From Isoetes taiwanensis (Eukaryota; Streptophyta; Lycopodiopsida; Isoetales; Isoetaceae), in contig JAJEKV010000160.1 of assembly GCA_021234155.1 (NCBI GenBank), positions 124,001 to 188,000 on the forward strand: a DNA stretch of 64,000 bases, given 5' to 3'. Shown piece by piece: positions 513-55,900 of this stretch; the stretch's first letter is position 1; the number at the start of each line of letters is the position of its first letter. Made by a program: the position numbers and the translations under genes. The notes beneath the pieces are model-generated. The model searched no databases. It worked only from the letters and a program-made list of their open reading frames with translations, and was not told where the DNA came from.

Positions 513-3500
513 TTTTTCAAAAATGGCCCTAAGAACTATGTTTTATTTTATTTTTTATTGCATGTAGCATCCTTTCATTCAATTTGATTTTGTCTCTTGC
601 GGTCCTTATCGACCAAATAGTATTTTATGCTTGGGAACAATGACATGAGTTGGACATCACAAACATGTGGCCATAAGGAACTCCTCATACAAATTTCTAT
701 CATCTGTAGAAGTTGCTTTCTGTGACTAGAGGAAGCTCCACTTGGCCCTTTGCACTAAGGTGGTTCATGTGTGAGAGGGTGTAATGATTGTCCTTATCGA
801 CCACTATGGTCTCTTCACCTTGTAATATATATTGTAATGAGCCCATTTATAAATATAAGGTATCTCAAGCTAAAACATTTTTGGGTGATTAAGTAAATGA
901 TTTATAATTTTGTTGGAATTTGCTTGATCTATTGTCTACACCTAAGAAAATAGAGCCAAAATGTTCAACTAAGAATCTTTTCAATTAGAGCGATAGGTCT
1001 AATGCATGTTTTGCGTTGCATTGTTCTTGTTCTCGACAAGCTATCAAAAGCGGAAGAAAAAGTTTGGATGCACACTAATGAACCAAAATTCCAATTATGG
1101 CGGTTTTTGGGTCGAGTGCTTCTTTTGTGTAAATTAACGGGGTTAGAAAAATGGGAATGGAATGAGTCCACTTTAATTAAATAAGACTTTATCCCCAAGC
1201 GAGGCATACCAAAATACAAGCGGAATGTTGGCGAAGATGCAGACCCGAGGGGGTCACATAAGTTGAGATTGAGGCTGGAAGATGGTCAAAACCGATTGAA
1301 GCCAGAGTTGTGTAAGGTATGCAAAGCGAGGGGCAATGAAGATGAACACCATGCTCGCCACACTTTATCCGGAGAATAAACATGGATCTAATTTTGGGTA
1401 TATATGAGTCACGTATTCATTGTTCTCTCTGCCACCATTGACATTAGGACCATATATAAAAGCGGTGGATGCATACGGATTCATTTATTCTGAAGTTGTA
1501 AAGAAAAACCATTGTTCATGTGCTCCATGGTCTCTGCGAGGCCCAAGTGACGTAGATAATTAAAAAAACTAGCATAAAATGCATGGATCACTGCTTGTTG
1601 GCGCAAATGCTTTTGTAGAGGGTTTTCATACCACGTCAAATACAAAGGCACATTCCAAATTGCATGGCAATAGCGGCCCTTCTCGGACACCTGCAATTTA
1701 GTAATCATGGAGCCAAAGCGAGCAATCAAGCAATCAATTGGCTAAGATTGCCAAACGGATCGAAAACATAAACCCCAAAAAACCTAGGCCAAAATCATCT
1801 GGAAAAAAATGTCGTTTTTAGAAGATGCAGGTACTGCTGACATGAAACTTCTAAAACCATGGCTTATAACTTTAAGAAAAAAATCCAAAAATATTTCCCA
1901 CTAGACCTGAAATCCTCAAATTAACAAGGTACATAAGTTTAGTTTAAGTTGTAAGTTGTATATTTTTATAGTGCCAAATCTAGTTGTATAGTTTTACTTG
2001 TATAACTTAAATGTATTAGCTTTGGAATCTAAGCTGCATATTTAATGGAAGCTAGCTAGTCAAAAGAACAGCGAAATTACATGTAAGGATGAATAAGGCG
2101 AGGAAGCACCCTTATCTTATCCTATAGTTGGAAACTTCTAGGAAGGCATACATAGAAGCTAAAAAACATTAATATACCTCATAATTTTTGCAGAATATTT
2201 CCAAAATTGACTGTGTCTTTTGTTGTCTTTAAAATGTGGATCATTATGTGACGCCGAGCTGTATCTGAAGAGGCACAGGGGAGTCACGAACATGGAGATA
2301 TGAGAGATTCATGAGAGGTTACAAGATGTTGTTGAACAATGTTGATAGTGTGATCAAGCAAGGCATTTTGTCCAGTGTAGGAACTTTAGACGTAATTGCT
2401 CTATAAGGTTTGGGGATGATCTTTTTTATTTCTTTTCTTATGTTTTCAATACCTTGGAGCTTCAATTCTCACTACACATAGCAGTACAAATTACCCACCT
2501 CGAACCAAACTCAAAGCTAATACATCTTGCCAAACCACTTAATTTCAAACATTCAACGGCCTTCTCAAACAACAGCCCCATGCATCAGAGCTTAACATGA
2601 TATTAACATCCAGAATTATGCCATCGCTACATTCAAACAACTTGTCCTTTCCCTTCTTGCGTCTACTGGCAGTTTCCCAAAAATAAAAAAATGCATTGAA
2701 GACCATCTCCATTAGTCCGATTCTGCAGTGCTTCATGGCAAACCGAGACCTAAAAATGAGCGTTCTAATTGCCCTGGACGAACTGGGCTTTGCCGACATG
2801 GCACAACCAAATTTCGAATTTTCATATGCTTTGTCTAGCTTACGGCTGTCTTTTCCCTCACGACCACGTCTTTTTCCACAAGAATCGTGGCGATCTATAC
2901 TATCGGAACTAAAGGCAAGCGAGGTGATTTTGCATTGTCTCGGATTTTGATGATATACAAGCTCGCGTATCTCAGAAGCTGGTTGTATTGTCAGAGCACC
3001 CCCCTCTTGTATTATCGGCCTGAATTTTTGTATAGTAATTCAGGCCCCCCCCTTTGGTACTTTTACGGCCCCTTTTGGAAGAATCAGAAGCCCCCCTCTT
3101 TACATGGTCAAAAATACCATTAATCTAAATTAAATCAAAGGAAGCAACACCAATTATAGATTAAATTACAATAAGGTTGTAATGCATAGGTCAAAAATAC
3201 TATTTAAATTAAATTAAGATAAAATTAATAACCTGATAAAAATTACAATAAAGGTAAATTACAATAAGGATTGTAATACGATCGATGCATTCACAGAACT
3301 TGGAATGCATTCCCGAGGAAAACCAACAAATTTTCTCGCCATATGTACTCCTCAAAATAACTATCACTTAATGGTCTTTCGTGTACCATATCTAAGCGTG
3401 CCTTCTTCAAGCTGCGCCCATGTTGACTTTCTATTGTATTGGTGTGCACTCCTATTTCGGGATCAACAAAAGAACCTCGAATAGATTAAGCTGTGTGTAA

Positions 3501-7479: not shown

Positions 7480-8160
7480 AAATGAAATATTTTATTAATT
7501 CGTCTATGAGACCATCGAGTCTATGAAGTGGGTTCTTGTTGGGGGGAATAAAAGGGCAAGTACATTAAGCCTGCATGCAATGAAGAACTATTGGAATATC
7601 TGGTTTTAAAGAAACAAAAGTTTAACCGCAGAGATTCAGATGTTTTCATTTTCTTGTCTATGTCCTGAGTTGTGTCGGCTCATCAAGATAAATATAGCTA
7701 TACGTAAACTCAGGTGTGGAAACATTGTTGAACATGTGGATGCTGACAGTTTTTGGAAAATGGGGGAACAGAAAGCCCCAATTGCATTTCAGCCCAATTG
7801 CTCTCAATGTTGAACTGAAATTTTTGATTAATGCACCAACTATGAGTAGTTTTATGGCTATTTCTCCCAGAACTCAGCTAATGCAATTATATACAGCAGT
7901 CTTCCTAACGCATGGAGCAACTACTGTAACAGGGTTGAAAGCTGAAGAATGATCTAGTTATCTATGCAGGTCTTTGCAGTCCTTGTCACATTAACCATCT
8001 GTGGCATAAAGCCCTTCATCTCCTGTTGCGCTTTGCATTCAATAAACTAAGGCACAAGCCCAGTTTTACATCCTAAGGTGGTCAGCTCTCTAATACCCTT
8101 TAGACAGCATTATATAAAAACTCCATAACAAAATAATGGTCTCTTAATGCATCATTTGAC
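7480..8160. other. 3'-flanking or intronic sequence
   Basis: Lies between the PHD exon and the candidate exons at 6887-7470. It holds short open frames in both directions. A plus-strand one at 7716-7806 includes VDADSFWKMGEQKAP, and a minus-strand one of about 75 codons overlaps it. Neither is decisive. Part of it is likely the 3' UTR of the gene ending at 8165. Confidence 0.35.
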
Positions 8161-8164
8161 TTTT

Positions 8165-11100
8165 TCACGGCATAGGGGGAGACAGAGTGTATCCGTGGTC
8201 TAGTGCTGCAGCATACCTGATATAAGAGGTGACAAAAGAACGCCTGCTACAAATATTGCACAGCCACGGAGCAGATGATGAGCTGCTCCAAGGAGGATCC
8301 AGACAGAATGTATGGGTAGCTCTACCAGCACATCCACCACATACAAGTAAAAGATCTTCTGTATCCCTGCTTTGGCAGACAAGACAGGACAGATCCTGCT
8401 ATAATTCAAGACAGCTTGTCAAAGGCAGATAATCCAAAGATCCTTTTACATTAAAAAAGAAATTCCATCTCACAAGTCACCATCAGATTCAGGGCCTTTA
8501 ATTTCACAGATTCCATAATCAACCTAGCCTAAATCATCTGTTCAGACTAAATATCTTAGTCAGGTTTCGGGACTATATTCCATTTGCCTTCAAGTGAACA
8601 TTTAGCTTGGCGAAACCTATTCAACGTTCTCTATAATAACTTAAATCTACCAAAAAGTAATCTTGCCATAACACGGCATAACAATAGTCTTTAAAAGGGA
8701 GGAGCAAAATAGACATACTGTTGGGGCTATTAACGTTCTGGATGGTCTTAACGACTGGTTTTTCTGCTGTTTCTCCTCGATCAAGATTATGGACTCCATT
8801 TCTGACTGTAAGGATCCATTTGGCAAATTGGCCTCTTTCTTTGTGATAAAGTCGAACGGTGTCTTGCACAATGGGCATGTAGCTGTTTTCTAAAGTGTGG
8901 GAAAAATAAAAACAAGATAAGGATAATAGACAGCATGGAAAGCATAATGCAACATATATATACCGCTTTACAAGCCCAATGATGGATGCACTTGAAGCAG
9001 AATTTGTGACCACATGCTAGTACACCCTCAGCACCCAGTTGGTTATCCTCATGGCAGATAACACATAGCACTTCTTTAGTAGAAGCTAAAGTTCCAGCAT
9101 CGGCATCAGTATTTGCAGTATTATGAATATCAGTACCATCTTCAACTTCGGTATGTTCGCAAGCATTTATCTTTGTACTATTATGAATATCCATACTATT
9201 ATGTGCTTCAGCTTCAATATCGCCGCAAAAGGCCTGGCCACCAGAAACCGTCTTTGCAGCACCAATAGCAATTGCAGCTAGCTTCTTTTGTCTCAAACGC
9301 TTGGGGAATTTCGTGGACTTGTATCGAGGAATATATGGGCATTCACTTCTCCGCTTCTTTTCAGGATTTATATCTATTTTATGAATGGATCTAGATAGCT
9401 GCAGAACATATCACAGAAATAGAGTTACCAAAAGAAAAGTAATAGTACAAAAAGATAGTAATATTCTCTACTTTAATCCTAACCTGGCTTACTAACTTTC
9501 AAACACAACTTTCAGATTTTGCTTTGCTTGTGTTATTCATTTCTCGTCTAACTAGCAAGTCAAAATTTTAGGACATGCGAACCAAATAAGAAACATATGC
9601 ATCTTTGACTTATCATATGCTATAACTAGTTGCAATTTTAAATAAAGAAATAAATGCTGTCACTATGCACAATGTTGGTACCTGAATACCCATATTGCAG
9701 GCAGCTTCTGCAGATTTAGAACATTCGCCTTGCAGCCGGCCCGATTTCACTGTTTGCTTATCCAATAGCTCGACTTTGTCAACTGCTGACTTGGCCTGAA
9801 CTCCTCCGGTTAGGACTGTCTCAGCAATTGGCACTTGCCATTGAATACATCCAGCAATCTTACCACTAAAAAGTTTCCCAACATTACATACAAATATACA
9901 CAACCACATCAAGTGCTTGCTAAATTCAAACTAACCTGATTAGGCCATAAGATTCCTCTGGGAGTCTAGTCCCTGCTTTTAAACAATCCTCAAACCAACG
10001 GTGATTGATAATTTTTGTTCCTAATCGTTTGGCTAGATCATATTTCCCACCAGAAAATGTCCAACATACCTATATTGTACATGTAAAAGTAACATGTATG
10101 AATTTAGGAGTAAGATAAAGGTACGTTCAGTATTATTGTAGAAATTTATCCCCAGTTATCACTATGAGTTTGTTAATTGTTGAGGATTACAACAATTAAC
10201 AAACTCATAGTGATTTATGGTAAGGTATGACTTTGCTTGCAAAACAGCATCTGCTACTGCAAAAAAGTTCAGATCTCAATCACTTTATTTATAACAGTTC
10301 CATGCAAGATCTAGCTATGAGTGTGAAGGGAAGTAAAGGTAACAAGTCAGTTGGGATAAAGTTGACAAAACTTAAACCCCTAATCTGGAACTATGTGAAA
10401 TTCGTTATAAGCATACCAGATGTGTATTTGCTGGCGACAGACTACCCGTGTAAAGTGCTCCAACTGTATCAATAAGCCTCACAAGTCGCCATCTCTCATT
10501 ATCATTGTAGCCAGTGACGGTGGCAACTACAGACTTCATTCCAGGTATAGGTCCATTTTTGTCCAAGTTTTCTATACCATTCTGATTACCTAAACAAAAT
10601 TTTCAGTGTACCAATCAGGTCATCCAAATGACAACTTGCATGGTTTAAGTTCAACAAGAAATCCACATGTATATTCAACTCAAGAAACTAATGCTAAGAA
10701 CACCTGGTGAAAATATTTACCACTGCCTCTTTTACATGCTTTAGTCAAGAGAATGTCCTTGTCGGCTTCTTCCATGTCAATGACAATAGGGTCCTTGCTT
10801 GTACCTTCTTCTGCAGGCTTAGCTTGAAATAAAGCAGAAATCCCCTTAGAATCATTTGCCTCTTTAATGTGTTCACTCATTGGACCTATTTGATCGCCAT
10901 TTCGATGGTGACATGCTGCAGCTTCTTCAATATCTGTGTCAATTAGAGGATATTTGAACTTCCGTGCAAATCAACAAATGTTTGAAACAAATCAACGGCA
11001 TTTATTACATGCATAAACAATGTGAATAGTAGACATTAATGTTTATACCTACCAGCATTTCTCCCAGATGCTTCAGTCAGTTGAGGGCACTTGCTGGCAT

Positions 11101-12448
11101 TTCCGCCAGCATGTTCAACAGCAATAAGGTCATTGTTAGTTTGTTCTCCTATGCTTTTTGTTTGAAATGATTCTACGCTCTCCTCAAATTCATCTTGCTT
11201 CCCAATTTGCTCAAAGGTTGCACCAAGCTGATTATTCTTTTCGTTGTAATTAACTACTGCTTGTTCGGCGCCTACCTCAGTTTGAAGATTTTGAGACACT
11301 GCATTGCCTATATCGACACCCAAGTAAACAAGTGCGGAATTGTTGGTCAAAATCATTCTCTTCAACATATGCCATTTGCCTTAGAACATGGGAAAGAGCA
11401 AGATTTGATTACCATTACTTTCTGATTCTGCTTTTTCCTTTCCTTTTAAAATAGGCTGCCCCTCACCTTTCTTGAAATGCTTACTATGCTCGTCATCCAA
11501 ATATTGAGGAAACTCTATCATAGGTGTTGCTCGGTTACAGTCTTCTTCAGTTGCAGGACAGATGGCCTTCCCTTTTACAGGTATAACAAGAAAAGTCAGC
11601 AGATTAAAATTGATCAGACCAATTAAAGGAATTGTGCTGACCAGGTTCACGCTTGCAACTTGCAACCAGAAATGTCAGTAAGCAGCCACGATTTGCCAAG
11701 TAAAACCTATCCCCATGCATTAACTGTACTCTATCGCCTTTACATAAATTGCGCTGTGAACCCTGCTTGTCAGACAACACATCAGAGTACATTTTCCTGT
11801 GCCTCAAACTCCATAAGGTTTCAAGCCTCATTATCAGACATGTGGCTATAAAATATAGCACTTAACCTAATTTCAAGGTTTAAGTCTGATTGTTATGAAT
11901 TATACTTTTGGGAAATGAGATATGAAGTGTGCATGCATGATGTGACGATGACGAAATTATCAGCTCAAGTTTGTGCATAGTGTAACTTCAATATTTAACA
12001 ATCGCCTAGAATCTCCCAAAGATCTGCTTATAGTGGGCAATGTAAGACAAATCTAATGCAATAAGATACATATTCTACATTTCACAGACACTACAGAAAC
12101 TGCACGAGCACGTACAGACACACTTACATGATTAACGTTGCCAGCTTGGCATCTAACCAGGTACAATGGATTGGTGCCATGGCATTCTAAGAAAAAAGAA
12201 CTGTTCTCATAAACAATGCGAGCTTGGCGCCTGCTAAATTGCAAATTTTCAGAATTCGGAAAGCTGCCTCTTCCTAGCCAGGTGCTGCATTCTCGTAATC
12301 TCTGACAATGCAAAATCACTGACATAAACCAAATGCGCATTTTCAGGGAAAAAAAATATCGGCTAGTAGCGATTGAAAATCGTACCAGACCAGGGCCTTC
12401 TGTTGGTTTTAGGTAAGCAACGAAAGATAATGGTTGCTCGGAGCTCAT
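8165..12448 (-). CDS. FHA-BRCT-RING-PHD protein, probable nuclear E3 ubiquitin ligase
   Basis: Twelve exons on the minus strand join in frame to about 770 residues: 12448-12386, 12301-12128, 11762-11642, 11571-11413, 11307-11053, 10933-10721, 10589-10417, 10069-9936, 9865-9682, 9398-8964, 8889-8719 and 8395-8165. All introns are GT-AG, 70-365 bases. The FHA domain (residues about 10-115) shows TWLGRGSF and [13 protein letters not shown] (about 340-431) shows VVATVTGYN and [11 protein letters not shown] with its conserved Trp. A basic NLS (about 505-525) precedes [21 protein letters not shown] (604-645). PHD (698-742) shows [17 protein letters not shown] and WLCNIC. FHA and BRCT bind phosphopeptides, RING recruits E2 and PHD often reads histone tails, so a DNA-damage or chromatin ubiquitin ligase is inferred. 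Plants have BRCT-plus-RING proteins; this looks like an extended member. The start is the first in-frame ATG. A donor at the PHD exon end (atcag|gtatgc) leaves the C-terminus uncertain. Confidence 0.85.
10158..10214. repeat. perfect 25-bp inverted repeat with 7-base loop, in an intron
   Basis: The arm atcactatgagtttgttaat and its last five bases (10158-10182) are matched exactly in reverse complement at 10190-10214, leaving a loop of seven bases. It sits within the 347-base intron (10070-10416) that splits the BRCT coding sequence. It could be a tiny foldback element, or an artefact of a chimeric read. Confidence 0.9.
10773..10793 (-). other. SUMO-interaction-like motif in the FHA-BRCT-RING-PHD protein
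   Basis: Exon 6 encodes [11 protein letters not shown] at residues about 304-314: a short hydrophobic core (IVI) followed by acidic residues, in a low-complexity linker between FHA and BRCT. This is the usual form of a SUMO-interacting motif. Together with a RING finger it would make the protein a candidate SUMO-targeted ubiquitin ligase. The motif is short and can occur by chance. Confidence 0.4.
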
Positions 12449-13599
12449 TTTGCGCCCATCGTTGCGTTCCGGCGAACTAGAGAATTGCCTCTCAAAATTC
12501 AAAAAGAGGCCTGCCACTTCCACGGTGGTAGAATTATGTCCTCATCAGCTCGTCAGCATGCCACGTACCTGGCACTGTCACCTATAGCGGATCATACATA
12601 ACTGGATCAAAATTCTTCTAAAACTAGTAGACTAAAAGTTCAGTGTTGGGGGAAACTTTTTAGGTCCATCGGAAAATTGCCCATGGTTATTTTGACCAAT
12701 CGGATATCTTATGTTTAGAGCCAGAAATTTCTATTGTCTTAATAGAAAAACTTTAAAAAAAACTTGTCGGAAAAATTCCTATTTATATAATTAAACTCTA
12801 ACTTAAATCGCTACTTCCTTAAAAACGCTGGTTTATATGTTCCCGCATTTCTGCCTAACACCGACAAGTTTAGAGCCTCTAAATATTTTTGGCGTGAGAA
12901 AAGCATGCATCCTCGTACTTTTATCCCTCCTATATAAAGCAGTTTTCTTTTCTGTTCTCATCTATTTTTTTCCTTACTAATTCTTTCACTGCCAAGAATG
13001 GTTCTTCGAAATTAAAGTACCCATTTATAAGCAAAAATTCTTGCCATAAATCTTCTCCTCGGCTTTTGTTCCTCAATTTTTTCTTCCTTACTATTTTTTT
13101 TAAGAATGTGTTTTACTTCATATTATACACTCAAAAATATTACAAAGTATTTTCCGTATAAGAAAATGTCCCCTAAGCATCAATCACTTTTAGATGATCA
13201 CTCCATATTGGAATTTTAATAATTTATCAAAGCAATTTGAGATCTCAAAGCAATTATACAACTTCTAATAATTTTGAAAATAATTCACCCGAGAAGAAAT
13301 ATGCTTATCATATAAAAGATCTTCTTCGCCTATACACTCCCATATTAGCTAAGACTTTGCCAGTGAATGCAACTTTTTAGAAGTACCCATTTGGATAAAT
13401 ACCCAAATGAAAGTGCCACCATCCAAAGATACTCCAAAAGAGAATGCACCGTGACCTAAGACTACCTACCTCCGCACAACATAAATAAAGGCTCAATGTT
13501 TCCACCGCCTACACATTGGGCAAAGCGCTCTACTCCTCGCTTAAAGCCGGCTGAACCATCTCATTAACTCTCAAAGAGCCGGCGAACTCACCAGCCAAA
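12449..13599. other. 5' flank of the gene, then AT-rich sequence without genes
   Basis: Immediately upstream of the gene start I see no clear TATA box. From 12700 to 13330 the sequence is very AT-rich with poly-T runs. A plus-strand tatataaag word at about 12931 is a possible TATA box but no open frame follows it. No coding or RNA feature is supported. Confidence 0.4.
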
Positions 13600-30149: not shown

Positions 30150-31690
30150 TTCTCGCCTCATCTAACCACTCATTGGCCCTAAAAGATCAACATGTTCTTA
30201 TGTCCATTGCTAAATGGGTTGCTACCATCCTGGGATGGAAACATTTCGTAATGCTATCTTTCCATGCCGCCTGCATCGGGCATATGCTAAAAATTAGTGC
30301 ATCCCATAAAACCGGCCGCGTGTGCATTTCATCAAATAATCTCTACATGCTTCCGGAGACATCTAATTTAAATTGGAATGTGCAACGAAAGTGCATGCAA
30401 CTCTTTGCCCCTAATAAAGCAAGTAAATCCCGCACATACAAGGGCAAGAATAATTATCTCTATCAAGCTTCATCCCTTCCTCGCACTGTTGAAAAAGAAG
30501 GTGAGCCTTCTCTTTGTATTGCCCTGTTGCATGCAATCCGTTATAAAGGTAATATCCTGTGAAAGAATCCCGCTTACATCTCTTCAAAGAGTCGCATAGC
30601 CTCTACCCAACTTCTTGTTGTATAAGCGTAAAATTATGGTTGTCCAAGAGACTTACATTCCTACTTGCATGACTGCTCAAATACTTGACGGGCCTCCCCA
30701 AGTTTCTTCATATGTCGCACTATGTTTCCAATTATAGTACTATAAAATGACATCCTTGCAAGGCATTTGTTTAAAGAGATATATCACTATTGTTGGCGTT
30801 CTAACAAAGGCTTCAGATCATGCATTGTAGGACGCTACATCACGCTGTGGCATTCGCTGAAATAGTATAAGCAAGCCTCATTGCCCTTTATAAAACCTCC
30901 AATTATAATTCCATGTAATGACATTTCTCATGCATATTCTTAAAGTGAGTTTGCTACGCCCCTCAAGTTGCCCATATGTTCCGCATATTCAGTGAAATCA
31001 TAGTGCCTCCAAGGAAATTACATTTTCTCACATTGAGGCATTTGTTCTGGAATCCACTCCATCAACTTCCTTGATATGCCTCTTGTTTAATGAGAGAGCC
31101 ATAATGATGATATCTCCGTGATACCACATTCGCCGAGGCATTTGCTTGAAAAAACCTAATGGCCATATCCTGTTGCCTTGCTGTCCATATGCCAAGCATT
31201 GTAAGGTTCCAAGTTACTATATATCCGCAGACGAGTATTCTGATAAAAAAAAGCACCGCTGTTTCTTCAAGGTGCTTATATTTGGACATAAATCGCAATT
31301 AAGATATTCCAAGAATAAATGTCTGGCCACATCTTGTCAAATATAGCCCTTGCATTCTCGCCAGAATCTTCACACTTGCCATAATAAGCAAAGTAGATAG
31401 GACTACATGTCGATCCAATCCATTTTGCATTATATAGCGTATGAACTGCTGAACTTCCTCGACAGTGCCTTGGTACTAGAACAACGTCACAAGCACAAGG
31501 CAATTTGGGGCACATCAATGAAGCCATTTGTTTTGAAGCCTTTTTTCTTGATACTCTCCCAATTGTTCATTCCCCATACAATGCCGAGGCGTGAAGCTTT
31601 TCCTATCCTCCTCGCTGTCAAATTCTTTTCCCAAGCTTTTGCATTAATGGAAAAAAGTTCGAGAGAAACCTTTATTCGTATGTAAGACAC
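30150..31690 (-). pseudogene. broken PPR (PLS-class) protein gene
   Basis: On the minus strand a series of degenerate pentatricopeptide repeats is visible in changing frames: YYGKC then ARAIFDKMWPDIYSWNILIA (about 31410-31280), IVTWNLTML (about 31215), RNVITWNYNWRFYKG (30930-30890), LFQRMPQRDVASYNA (30870-30825), LFKQMPCKDV (about 30770) and GKELHA (about 30410). Intact PPRs of this class are long intronless-type genes whose products bind organellar RNA for editing or splicing. Here stops and frameshifts occur in nearly every repeat, so it is dead. No E or DYW domain was recognised. The repeats could derive from a retrocopy. Confidence 0.65.
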
Positions 31691-36660: not shown

Positions 36661-38320
36661 GCACTTCATGAGGGAATATGCATCTACGCTAGATATCATC
36701 TTTACCTACCCTATACAAGGTTCCGCCAAAGAAAGTGAAAGGTTTACATTTTTGAATTAATCTTTTCCTTTCTATGGCTCTTTATATATCATCCGGAAAT
36801 TCTACCAAAGGAAAGGAATTCGCCACATCAACATACCATTCGAACTCGCAAATACCATAAAACAAGTTAGCATCGTGCAAGCTATCTTTTACCCCTTTAT
36901 CAAGTAGAATCACTCAATCAAGCGATAAATGGTCACAGGTGCATGATTTTCCTCGGTTTTACAATTATAATGAAATTGAAACTCTTGCAAATATGAGTGT
37001 TCATCTAGTTATTCTTCCCGCTCTGCAAGGTTTTAAAATTAAATATCTCAATGCTTGGTGGTCAACAAAAATACAAATTCTTTTTCCCACAAATAGTGGC
37101 TTAAACTTTATAATTGAATAAATCATGCCCAATCCTTCCCTTTCTTCGGTTGTTGAATAATTCTTTTCTGCATTAGACAACTGGATTTACTCAGTGGCAA
37201 TAAATTGATGATCCCACCCATCTTGTTGTGGTTGTGACAAAAATACTTCCTATTGCATATCCCTCAAGAGTCTACATGGACATGAAATCTCTTCCCAATT
37301 AGGAAAAACTAAGTATGGGTGCAAAGCATAGTGCTTCTTTAAACTTGTAAATGCTTTTTTGACATTCTTGTGTCCACTCCATATTCTTTCCCTTTAAGGA
37401 GTGCGCTAATGGTAAAGCCTATTAGCATAATATCTTATGAATCTTCACATGATACCCTATATGCCCAAGAAATGCTTGTAATTGCTTAATGTTAGTAGGT
37501 GGCTCCCAATTCAAATAACTTTTAGTCTTATCGTGTGGTCAATTGCAAATACTCCCTTGCCCTAAATGATCCTGTACTCCAACAACGCCCCATGGGTAAC
37601 TCCAAACAAACATTTCATAGGGTTTAGAGATATACCATATTCCTCGGCATTTCATAAAGCATAACTGAAGCTTCCATGTTCTTGCCTCGTACTAAAACAC
37701 GTAAATCATCAAGAAACACTTCCATAAAGTTCTTTAGATAATCTTAAATGCACCCGTGAACTACCCTTTGAAAGTGGCAGGGCATTACACAACCCGGTCG
37801 GCATAACCTTATACATGTAGCACCCCCATTCCGGGTGATACAAATGTGGTTTTTCCCTATCTTCCTTGGCAATACTCACCGGGTTGTACCCACTGAACCC
37901 GTCAAGAAAAGAATAGTACCTGCGCTGTGCAACCTAACTGTTAACGCTATCGCTGAAAGGAACAGGAAACCCATCCTTAATGGTGGGCAGATTTAATTTT
38001 CTATAGTCCACACACCCTTAATTTTTAGACTTCTTTGGAACTATAACTATTGTGTAATAACCACTCACTAGTTTCCAATCGGGTTCAATAAACTTAGCTT
38101 AATTAAATTATCCAAACCTCTTCCCCTTACTCACCTTTGAGTAATGAGGGTTCACATCCCGTAGGGTCGCTGCCTTATAAGTAGCTTTTGTGTTAGCTTT
38201 CAAGTACAATTCTAATGCAAGTGATATACCTTCGGGATCCCTACAATACCCATGCAAAGACATCCTTAAACTCCATGAGGAGATCCTTATATTCTTTATG
38301 TTCTTTTACTGTGATTTCAA
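36661..38320 (-). pseudogene. retrotransposon reverse transcriptase and RNase H, decayed
   Basis: CVDYRKLNLPTIKDGFPVPF (38016-37960) is the conserved entry motif of Gypsy RT, followed by FLDGFSGYNPVSIAKED (about 37920-37860). MEVFLDDLRVLVRG (about 37722-37680) is the catalytic box, with FLDD in place of the usual YxDD-type sequence. Further down (about 37400-37200) pieces such as LHPYLVFPNWEE match the start of the RNase H region. Stops and frame changes are frequent. The protease before RT was not recognised. Confidence 0.75.
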
Positions 38321-39989: not shown

Positions 39990-40950
39990 AATTGCAGGTT
40001 TTATGTGAGTAGGACACCTGCATGGTAAATGGCCATAACCCTTGCATTTCACACACCACATGTTGTCCTCCCATTGTTTACTTGTGGCTTATTACTCATC
40101 ACACCTCTACCCAATTCAATTGCATCTCGCTCATTTTATTAGTAAGAGTCTCCTACCACCTTTCAACTTTTATCAACCCTTCCTATGGTTGGCTTTGTTA
40201 TTGGGGCAATTCACTCCCCTAATGTGGCTAGCCTACTACACCCATATGGTACCCAAGTCACAGGGCGTGACACCCAACATTCCCAAGTGAGGGGCTTGCT
40301 AAAGGGGTTCTAGGAGGGTTCTTGAGGGCTACCCCACCCAAATACGTGTATGCATAATCAACCCGGGATTATAATGACATGGGCCATAGTTAGCTGTTTG
40401 GCTTGTTCTACTAGAATGAATCTTGATGGTACTTTCTAAATCTGGTCGGGCTTGACCCTTTAGTGAAAAGCCCAAATCCTAGTGGTAACCTATCATTTGT
40501 AAAGTATCTTACTTGATCCTCACAAGAATCAGGGTGGGTTTCTCTTTGGCTACCAACCGCCTAAACTCAAAGACATAGCTCTCAGACTTTCATTAGGCAA
40601 AGAAGCCGTGAAATATGTTAGCTCATCATTTATTCTTTCTTGAAGGCCAATAGGCCTAAAGGCCTTTTAAAAAATGCTTTCTAAGGTCATCCTAAGTCAA
40701 AAAGGGGTAATACTCCTAGAGGTTCTTATACCATTCCATTGCCCCATCCTCTAAGGTTGCTCCCAAACAAATGGGTAAGTCTTTCAAGATACTATCTTCT
40801 TTGATTGGCCTCACTAATAGTCGTAAATGATTGAATGTGAGACCAGCCTCCCCTTTAAAGGTGAAAAGGTTGGGTATTTCATTTTAGAAGTTTTAAGAGC
40901 TGCCATGGGATTAAGAATCAAGTATTAGGAAGGAGCAATAACCGGGTTTC
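39990..40950 (-). pseudogene. retrotransposon gag with CCHC zinc knuckle, decayed
   Basis: A capsid-like piece GATLEDGAMEWYKNL (about 40770-40720) matches the retrotransposon gag pattern. It is followed by CVKCKGYGHLPCRC (about 40055-40010), a C-x2-C-x4-H-x4-C zinc knuckle that binds element RNA. The knuckle frame stays open to 39831. The piece between is broken by stops. Confidence 0.65.
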
Positions 40951-49649: not shown

Positions 49650-52380
49650 GAGGATGTGCACCAAGGAGGCCCAAATTCCCATTTCGTGTTCCACCGCATG
49701 CCATCTAGATTTGTTGCTTCCCATTAGCTAGGCGCTGGTAGCCCTCGATGATATCCCCTAGATGACCAGGCTGCCCCATCCGTGGAGGGACCGTGCCCTC
49801 GAGTGTGTCATCGTAGTCGCTGGTAAGTACCGGCACTCCATTGCTTCGAGGTGATGTTCCTCGTGGGCTGCACAACCTTGCCTACCATGTTGCTGGTGCT
49901 CGGTGAGGTATCCGCTTTTGTTCTTTGGAGGAAGGAGGATATTGTCTGATAGCTTGTGGGCGGAAGGGATCGCTGACTGCCGCAGTTCACGCTTGAGCCC
50001 CATACTCATCGTCGAACCATTTATTGCGGGGGAAGGTGGCGCTACCGAGGTTCCGCAGAGTGGCCCTTCCAAAGCATCTTTCAAAGCAATCACGGGCGTG
50101 AGTCGGGCCTGGAATAGGATTGTCGCTAAAGTGTGGGGAGTTGCAGAGTCCCGCGATCATGCTCAAGCATCCGGTATAGTCCCCGCATCTGCCGCTGTCC
50201 AGCGCAGCTTGGGCACGGGTGTTGAGGTGGATGCATCACCCGGAGCCCGCCAATGGCGTAACGGGCGGGGCCGTGGTCTCGAGTCCACTTCCTCGCCCCG
50301 AGTAAGCGAATCTAATGGAAAATGGGTAACCGTGTGCGCATCCTCGCTCACCAGCGTGTAATCCACCACATCGAGCCGCCTCTTGGTTCTCCCTGCCTGC
50401 TGCGCAAAAGAATTAAGATGTACCATTGTGCCAACTCATTACAAATAACTGTGTCAAGATAATACCCAAGAAGCAACAACCGCCGCCGAGGCGTGAAATA
50501 TGGCTGGCTGTCCTCGATTTCAAGCGCATCACAACTAACTGCGAAGATCGTCAGGGGCTCAAATTTCGACCGCTTCATTTTGTGCGCATTAAAGTCTCCA
50601 AGATAACCTTGCCCAACTGTTTAGGTTGTCGTATGTCACTACATAGATCGACATGGCTCTAATCTATCCACACCTCAATGAGTGTGATAAAAAGGTTTCC
50701 CAAGATGTAGAAAGCAGCATGTCACACGAAGAGGATGTCGCCATCAAGCATACCGCATGCTAATTCCACAACCAGCGATTGTACCTATCCGCTTTTGTGC
50801 AAAGAGACTGACCGGCCCCGTAGTTGCAACGTATAGTAGCAGTAATCCCCCATGCTCTTGCTTGCATGCACTCGCTGAACACCGAAAATGCAAGATAGCT
50901 CGGGAGGTTCTAGATTCTATGCCCTCATGTTCCCATGTTTCATGAGAAAATGAGATCCATATCCGGGCAATAGAGTTGAGACTCTCCTTTCATTAAGGGA
51001 TGCCCGACAGCCCAAGATACTATTCTATGGCACACCCATTGTTGGCATTGATGTAGACGCACAATGATCCGGCTCCAGCCTGGGTGGGGAGCAATGCGAC
51101 GGGAGTAGCGGGGCCAGGGAGCAATGGAGCAAAGGGGAGGCAGGAGGTGCGAGGGGTACCGGTGGCGTGAGTAGAAGTGGCACTGCGGTAGCTCCCGAAG
51201 GTAGCAATGGGGCCTCCGACGTCAGAGTGTACTGATGCATCGACGGACTCCGCCAGCGCCGGCCCAAACGTGCTTGCCCGCCGGGCCCCGCACGCCTCCT
51301 CGAGGCGTATCGCCCCGACTTGAGCCGCTTGTTGCCGACCTCAAGCACGGAGAAGATCTTGGTCGACATACGGTAGTCCTTCAATTGCCTATACTTTAAC
51401 GCAAAATTGCCTCACGACTGCATGTCTCGCAACCATGAAGGTGACAAATCGCGGGCGATCTGCGCTGAACCCCAGCGGTTTGCTCGACAATGTGGACCGT
51501 GGTCCTAAATGTCATGCGAGATAGGATTCGATCTCGATGCGCCAGAGATACTTCCGCCTCCGGAGTCCACATACCACCACATTATGATGTCGCCGGCCCC
51601 GTTTTGCCGCCACCGAGTCGCTGGCACATTGGCCCAACAGGATGCTTGTTGTCCTGAGTGTGTGGGGCTATTCACAAAGAAGGGGCGGCATGGTGTTCGG
51701 GAGATGGGAGCAGTGTGTTGTGGCGTCCGCTCGGGTTGGCGACTTCTGTGGGTCATGGGCATGTGGACTTGTCCTGCCCCATACCGCGTCATGTTCGGAG
51801 TCGAGTCTAGCTCCCATTGAAATTTCTGCTGCTTGGCCAACCTATCTGCAGTAATCGCCGCAATTGTTCATGGGATCTCGGCATGGAGGCCCCCGCTTGT
51901 CAAGCAACGGTTTCTAGCTCCCGAGTCTTCTCGATTCAGGTCTCAGCCACTGTAGGGTTCTAGCTCTTCCCGCTAGCTCGGGCGGCTCGGGTGTTTCGAT
52001 ATGGTGGTAGACCCTCAAATTTCTAATCCTGAGGTGGGAGATGGTTACCATTATCCTCGTCAAAGACACCGCCTGCCCTGTGGCTATGGTCTCTATGGTG
52101 GTGAGGAGGGAGTCCACGCGAGTCGCAGTCAAGACCTCGCTTCCTGCTCTCAAAGCAAGCTGCCTGCCTTCTAACTCACAGATGCGGGTCTCCATCTTCC
52201 CGCAACTGCTGCCTCCGCCGCCAATCAGCTTTTGAGAACGTGTGATTTGAAGATTGGATCTCTCTCGCTAGTCCTCAACCGGCCCGTTGCTCTCACCTGT
52301 TCCTCCATTTGCTCTCCTCATGGTCTTCGCCCGCCTCGTGCTTGCATCATTGGCCTGAGTAGCCTCATCCATCTCTGGCC
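49650..52380 (-). mobile_element. LINE 5' half: ORF1 and endonuclease, decayed
   Basis: Clearly more GC-rich than its flanks. On the minus strand an ATG at 52372 starts MDEATQANDASTRRAK, with one in-frame TAG and then a Leu/Glu-rich stretch METRICELEGRQLALR (52195 onward), which looks like an ORF1 or gag coiled coil. Further on, GDFNAH (50599-50582) is the signature of the apurinic-type endonuclease of LINEs. LDVVDYTLVSEDAHTVTHF (about 50380-50320) matches its C-terminal part, where SDH would follow but a frame change occurs. RT should follow but the sequence ends against repeat R at 49642. The family may be that of the RT fragment at 45065-46715; this is inference. Confidence 0.65.
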
Positions 52381-54939: not shown

Positions 54940-55900
54940 TTCTTTATATTGTATTGTATTGTATTGTATTGTATTGTATTGTATTGTATTGTATTGTATT
55001 GTATATTTTAATGTCAATAACGAATTTAGGTCCCATGGGATTGGAGTATTGCTATGGAGCGCTGATATCAACACTCCAAATTTTACTGCATATTTATAAA
55101 TAAACGGTTTAGTCACATAGTCTGGCAAAAGTGGTGAAAAAAGACCCAAACTTTTAACCTGGGAAACAACCACTTCCCCTTTCCCTATATACCCGCATTG
55201 TGAACTTATGGAGCCGGCTCCGAGCCTTCCCCATCGGCAGTATTTTGCTATCTGGCGTGATGTTGTATCCGTTTCCATAAATTCTTCCACGACCGCTTTT
55301 GTTTCGATGATATATTCCATAGGTTCATATCTCTTGTAGCCTTCCCCACATAGAATTACAAGTTTACTTTCTTCCTTTTTCACCTTATCTCCTCATATGT
55401 CGAGCACCTATTATGTGCATTTCATCTTTGACTTCCCACAATTCACATAGTGCACACAATCCTTCTTCCTTTTACATCACGAAGCATTGCCATCTACCTT
55501 GCTTGATTAGGTTTTCCCCATCGAGGTGCTACTTTCCTATACTTCTATTCCATACAGTAGAGCCGGTGTGACTGTCATATTGCCCAATCTATTATATTTT
55601 GTTGCGGGGATATTGATTGCATTCCATAATAGCATCCAATTGCCACTTGCCATCTTTTCTCCAATCCCTATTTCCATGTAGTGAGGGCATATCGGCTAAC
55701 TCTGTTCACAAATTTTCACTATGTTTTTGTTTCTTTTTTCTTGTTTGATGTTTGTGGTTTCTTATTCTGATGCCTTCAGATCTAAAAGCATCAGTTGTAC
55801 GACGATGTTTGCCACAGACAACACTATCTTTCCTTCTGCCATGCTCTAGCAAAACCTAGAAACCCTAAAGAAAAAAAGGCCCTTCAGTTGCTTCTTCGCT
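54940..55900 (-). mobile_element. LINE 3' part with (CAATA)n tail and CCHC-type end
   Basis: The minus strand gives NMTVTPALLYGIEV (about 55600-55555), typical of the region after the RT domain. EEGLCALCELWEVKDEMHII (about 55475-55420) and, after a one-base shift, CSTYEEIR follow; C-x2-C...H...C is the zinc-like motif at the end of many LINE ORF2 proteins. RQIAKYC then leads to the end. A frame from 55383 runs open into the tail, which on the plus strand is about ten tattg units (54948-55003). The repeat-encoded QYNTI residues are an artefact of the tail. Upstream RT was not found. Confidence 0.65.

Follow-up and report, generated by a model that had tools for sequence, protein, structure and literature searches.

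A putative STUbL2-type E3 ubiquitin ligase gene with an N-terminal FHA domain in Isoetes taiwanensis

Introduction

The Arabidopsis ligase STUbL2 (At1g67180) is described as having one N-terminal BRCT domain, a RING and a C-terminal PHD finger that was called unannotated in 2024; it is named as most closely related, among human proteins, to RNF8, which has an FHA domain where STUbL2 has the BRCT (PMC11014961, here and below as far as the accessible text of the cited papers goes). At1g67180 has been described as a SUMO-binding ligase that complements in a genetic assay (PMC4890748), its suppression phenotype occurs without restoration of H3K27me1, and it is co-expressed with replication factors (PMC8784105). 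Its investigators call its molecular function unknown (PMC4890748, PMC8784105). Here we describe a gene of related layout in a 64,000-nucleotide stretch of the Isoetes taiwanensis genome (assembly GCA_021234155.1, contig JAJEKV010000160.1, forward-strand positions 124,001 to 188,000; "the window", with positions counted from its first letter). The gene occupies 12448..8165 on the minus strand, in 12 exons, and we judge it, with a probability of roughly 0.7, to encode an E3 ubiquitin ligase of the STUbL2 type (BRCT, RING, PHD and SUMO-interacting motif (SIM)-like motifs) with an FHA domain added at the N-terminus.

RNF8 has been called animal-specific (PMC9792525). Plants have the H2A.X signal, and the proposed plant counterparts of MDC1 are BCP3 and BCP4, described without an FHA domain; it has been put forward that TQx-hydrophobic motifs of BCP4 could be equivalents of the sites in MDC1 to which RNF8 binds (PMC11014961). 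The protein predicted here resembles STUbL2 in having a BRCT ahead of a RING and a PHD finger at the C-terminus, and its SIM-like motifs may be a parallel to the SUMO-linked activity of the Arabidopsis ligase. By contrast, it has a predicted N-terminal FHA domain, and the accessible accounts of STUbL2 describe none.

Results

The joined product contains, in order, an FHA domain, a linker, a BRCT, a RING and a PHD finger; the first, third and fourth of these are each interrupted by an intron, and the PHD finger lies within a single exon. An initial annotation of this DNA had proposed that the four domains belong to one product, and Pfam searches support all four, the FHA least: BRCT and PHD are matched in the full-length product, the RING exceeds its cut-off as a segment, and the FHA does so only in N-terminal segments. 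The BRCT, encoded by exon 7 (10417..10589, first half, with matches to both BRCT families) and exon 8 (9936..10069, second half), reaches 64.6 bits with PTCB-BRCT PF12738 (E=8e-18, residues 346-408) and 38.7 bits with PF00533 (E=1.2e-9, residues 349-413) in the full 768-residue form. It is a single stretch in mid-protein, upstream of the RING and with the FHA and the linker (about 345 residues in all) ahead of it, and it includes T351-G352 and K392, which we take to be BRCT contact residues.

Exon 9 (9682..9865) lies between the BRCT and the RING and fits its neighbours, with entry phase 2 and exit phase 0. The RING, at residues 601-643, is a complete C3HC4 finger with all eight ligands; exon 10 (8964..9398), which also has the basic stretches KKRR and KRLRQKK, contributes its first part (CVIC...CGHKFCFKC), and exon 11 (8719..8889) its end (CPLCK). 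With zf-RING_2 it scores 26.4 bits at full length (E=8.5e-6), just below the cut-off of 27.3, and 33.2 bits, above the cut-off, as a segment; a BARD1-type RING model, whose cut-off is 35 bits, gives the same segment 11. Exon 12 (8165..8398) encodes the stop codon and a PHD finger with complete C4HC3 ligands at residues 696-741 of the 768-residue form, which scores 28.2 bits with PF00628 in the full product (E=1.9e-6) and 35.1 as a segment, where the cut-off is 24. Among the matches listed, the solved PHD fingers closest to it by sequence are those of KDM5 demethylases and BAZ2A. Readers of unmodified H3 are among them, and the PHD finger here may belong to the same class. Two SIM-like motifs flank the BRCT-RING region: PIVIDMEE (10767-10790; residues 303-310 of the 768-residue form), encoded by exon 6 ahead of the BRCT, and SIILIEE (8773-8793), encoded by exon 11 after the RING.

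The FHA domain (PF00498, Pfam cut-off 20.7 bits) is encoded by exon 2 (12128..12301, residues 22-79, first part) and exon 3 (11642..11753, last part, which could also start in frame at 11762 or 11765). In N-terminal segments of 120-124 residues spliced from the donor at 12128, it scores 26.2 bits with the acceptor at 11753 (E=1.1e-5, a value somewhat flattered by there being several acceptors to choose among), 22.2 bits with 11762 and 21.8 with 11765. Longer segments give 21.2 (11762) and 20.8 bits (11765) at 173-175 residues, and 23.8 (11753) and 19.7 bits (11762, under the cut-off) at 326-329 residues. Exon 2 alone scores 18.2 bits, and joining it to exon 3 through the near-consensus donor brings the score to 26.2; exon 3 with the start of exon 4 gave no FHA match, nor did the one reversed segment tried. 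Two NCBIfam bacterial families also match the FHA stretch, at 20.3 and 12.0 bits, far under their curated cut-offs; one carries FHA in its name, and the other we presume to be FHA-bearing.

On these sequence comparisons the FHA domain is supported but weak, and it is the least secure of the four. The low score would be expected if this were an ordinary STUbL2 orthologue that works exactly like the Arabidopsis enzyme and has at its N-terminus an FHA-like remnant that is decayed or does not bind; a Q also stands here in place of the H that we assume to be usual in the SRxH motif. Nonetheless, G31-R32, S44-R45 and N65 of exon 2, which we take to be the phosphopeptide-contact positions of FHA domains, are all present, and the better splice junction raises the FHA score, so we regard a remnant as unlikely.

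That splice junction, between exons 2 and 3, is where our model probably departs from the initial annotation, which gave a product of 770 residues. This length is obtained with a donor at 12165 (ATT/gtacct) and an acceptor at 11796, and other pairs of sites also yield it. The donor at 12165 agrees with the consensus in just 4 positions out of 9. In predicted U1 pairing it is equalled or surpassed by 74% of the 243 GT sites in the gene region; the donor at 12128 (CAT/gtaagt), 37 bases beyond it, fits at 8 of 9 positions. With the near-consensus donor the product is 768 residues long (acceptor 11753), 771 (11762) or 772 (11765), the last two acceptors being of unremarkable splice-site strength, and the FHA score is better; the 770-residue form scores only 19.0 bits in the 120-124-residue segment, under the cut-off, and 17.9 bits in the 173-175-residue segment. 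We therefore rejected the pair 12165 and 11796 for its poor donor and its FHA score. We likewise rejected an acceptor at 11845, paired with a donor that lies four bases further downstream than 12128 (FHA 19.5 bits).

The whole model is open without an internal stop, the phases match at every join, and all 11 introns are of the GT..AG kind, with lengths of 70-374 bases when the acceptor at 11753 is used; the claim of twelve in-frame exons with matching phases is borne out, and the predicted gene looks intact and real. Its introns are short and AT-rich, which, like the domain layout, fits a plant gene. Such agreement had been considered hard to get by chance. At the exon 2/exon 3 junction, matching phases alone are weak evidence, because 138 of the GT/GC-AG site pairs tried there leave the whole frame open. 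Other properties argue more strongly against chance. All 12 exons (0.396-0.491) exceed all 11 introns (0.297-0.381) in G+C content, and the linker shows coding bias. For the latter test, a codon-position model was trained on exons 7-12 only and used to score other exons in the joined frame and in the five other frames. In the coding frame the linker exons score 17.4 bits, the other frames reaching 3.7 at most (exon 4, 11413..11571), 33.9 against at most 3.4 (exon 5, 11053..11307) and 27.7 against at most -1.1 (exon 6, 10721..10933). For the three together the joined frame scores 79.0 bits and no other frame more than 5.7, so the linker looks coding.

Several observations weigh against a single STUbL2-type ligase that begins with an FHA domain. 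The exon model is derived from genomic sequence. The FHA domain is not listed in full-length Pfam scans of the 771- and 768-residue products, even at E<=10, and a sequence comparison of the FHA segment with the PDB returned no FHA match, the sole match being an eS27 chain at E of about 0.6. The general SIM pattern occurs at four sites against a mean of 1.7 in shuffled sequences, 10% of 500 shuffles reaching four; three of the four sites fall inside the RING or PHD, leaving SIILIEE as the only plausible one, and PIVIDMEE is not among them, having been picked up by different patterns that lack a shuffle control. RNF8 (4ayc) matches the RING at E=7.8e-4, ranking under other RING chains such as RNF141, PEX10 and RNF38 among the best 60 of 157 matches, and the RING does not, as judged from these matches, look specifically RNF8-like. 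The likeness to STUbL2 is suggested by architecture, not by alignment. Lastly, the coding-bias test is uninformative for exons 1-3, whose in-frame score of 7.0 bits is exceeded in other frames (as much as 10.1), and the exon 3 donor (CTG/gtcagc) fits the consensus at 6 of 9 positions, its U1 energy being matched or beaten by 23% of the 243 GT sites.

The last two of these observations are also those that would be expected if two genes had been merged, with exons 1-3 forming a small FHA protein, perhaps extended in frame into intron 3 to near 11604, and an FHA-less STUbL2 orthologue beginning downstream. The exon 3 frame is indeed open as far as 11604, and the published account of Arabidopsis STUbL2 places its BRCT at the N-terminus, the accessible text leaving an FHA unmentioned (PMC11014961). 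However, exons 4-6 give a strong coding signal in the joined frame, and phase-1 introns stand before exon 4 and after each of exons 4-6, so upstream sequence should provide their start. Furthermore, introns 3-6 are just 70-131 bases long and therefore leave little space for the end of one gene and the promoter of another. We consider a merger of two genes rather improbable and retain the single FHA-BRCT-RING-PHD gene.

Three further features of this gene were observed. Exon 1 (12386..12448, residues 1-21, donor CTG/gtacga) begins at 12448 with the first ATG of the open frame, and a four-codon upstream frame, MGAK (12445-12459, minus strand), ends in a stop codon that overlaps this start codon (ATGA); it could modulate how strongly the main frame is translated. 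Intron 1 (12302-12385) is 84 bases long, a multiple of three, and stop-free in frame; its retention would therefore insert 28 residues ahead of the FHA domain with the frame kept. Inside intron 7, at 10158-10214, the two 25-base arms of a perfect inverted repeat enclose a 7-base loop. A 111-base stretch of this region folds at -39.7 kcal/mol (z -10.4), and no further copy was found in the window at up to 3 mismatches. The repeat is probably a small foldback or an insertion resembling a miniature inverted-repeat transposable element.

The initial annotation had described the gene as intact amid decayed repeats and thus likely under selection. The window has 32 reading frames of at least 110 codons, and the surroundings were sampled through 10 of them, none of which scored above a Pfam cut-off; four of the 32, outside these 10, overlap the FHA-BRCT-RING-PHD gene. 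Selection may be suggested by the intactness of the gene. No tRNA was found in the window, nor did any Rfam family reach its gathering score there, and scans of 8000-12900 for bacterial promoters and terminators, which are irrelevant for a plant gene, were at chance level. Elsewhere in the window, a frame at 31279-31566 (minus strand) resembles, by eye, a remnant of a pentatricopeptide repeat protein, and two short minus-strand frames, one near 40055 with a gag-like zinc knuckle and one near 37716 with a lone reverse-transcriptase-like YxDD-type motif, may represent decayed fragments of retroelements. A 164-codon frame at 2548-3039 (minus strand) has a weak TMEM62-like match (15.3 bits, cut-off 27), and a perfect tandem array of 11.6 copies of the 5-base unit TATTG lies at 54947-55004. 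The G+C content of 50001-52000 is 0.547, against 0.34-0.47 in the other 2-kb bins; no family was found in the two frames scanned in this bin or at its edge (49855-50358 and 51028-51411).

Discussion

We propose that two of the domains would read phosphorylated chromatin or repair proteins, the FHA domain by docking on a phosphothreonine motif and the BRCT on one with phosphoserine, while the SIM-like motifs would retain SUMO-modified partners and the PHD finger would read the histone H3 tail; the RING would then ubiquitinate the assembled target. Since several readers accompany the RING, such an enzyme would be active only where multiple marks coincide, and its most likely site of action would be damaged or stalled-replication chromatin. 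A role in the DNA-damage response or in chromatin is what we infer from this layout, and a role in genome stability is a natural guess given the genetics of STUbL2, as far as these are described in the accessible text (PMC4890748, PMC8784105).

A bolder proposal is that the gene is the plant counterpart of RNF8, such that its FHA domain would bind phosphorylated TQx-hydrophobic motifs of BCP4, the enzyme would then ubiquitinate chromatin or SUMO-modified repair factors at breaks, and the FHA would have been lost from Arabidopsis STUbL2, leaving a reduced form. We think this quite unlikely. Nonetheless, an FHA-carrying ligase of the STUbL2 type would be a concrete candidate for the RNF8-like reader that is missing in plants, and one that allows a simple binding test of the FHA domain; a domain-loss account of Arabidopsis STUbL2 would become available, if true.

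No FHA-BRCT-RING-PHD protein was found among the titles and abstract openings listed, a search that most subscription papers fall outside, and sequence databases may already annotate one. When the C-terminal 442 residues were compared with viral contigs and with prokaryote genomes, there were 5 and 9 pattern matches, respectively, and no relative. DDRM1, a plant ligase that stabilises SOG1, might be the same gene as STUbL2. The accessible text of PMC10442038 does not confirm this, and no use is made of it here. Surveys of wheat PHD and tomato RING proteins report RING-PHD, BRCT-BRCT-PHD or BRCT classes, and the word FHA is absent from their main texts as far as these were accessible (PMC9791960, PMC6801689). 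An FHA domain may turn out to be common in plant orthologues beyond the Arabidopsis-centred descriptions.

Compared with known systems, the statement in the initial annotation that plants have BRCT-RING proteins holds and can be made exact, the combination being the BRCT-RING-PHD of Arabidopsis STUbL2 (PMC11014961). Because that combination has already been reported, the FHA is the only extra domain here. The BRCT is N-terminal in STUbL2; in the Isoetes protein the FHA domain (26.2 bits in the N-terminal 120 residues and 23.8 in 326) and the linker precede it. The presence of an FHA and a BRCT in one chain recalls MDC1 and NBS1, and the gene might accordingly be taken for a plant counterpart of these scaffolds and not for a ligase at all. 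However, MDC1 and NBS1 have a tandem BRCT, whereas the protein here has a single BRCT stretch in mid-protein, together with a complete RING and a PHD finger, and the proposed plant counterparts of MDC1, BCP3 and BCP4, are described without an FHA (PMC11014961); we regard a scaffold of this kind as scarcely credible. BRCA1-like and MDC1-like readings alike were rejected on domain order and number. In BRCA1 and BARD1, whose layout we take as follows, a RING and a BRCT also share one chain, with the RING N-terminal and a tandem BRCT C-terminal; here the order is reversed and the BRCT is single. The predicted STUbL2-type ligase also shares an N-terminal FHA, weak in this case, and a downstream RING with the FHA-RING ligases RNF8, CHFR and yeast Dma1 and Dma2, and differs from them in its additional BRCT, PHD finger and SIM-like motifs. 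Through its FHA domain, an enzyme of the STUbL2 type would gain the phosphothreonine input on which RNF8 relies in animals.

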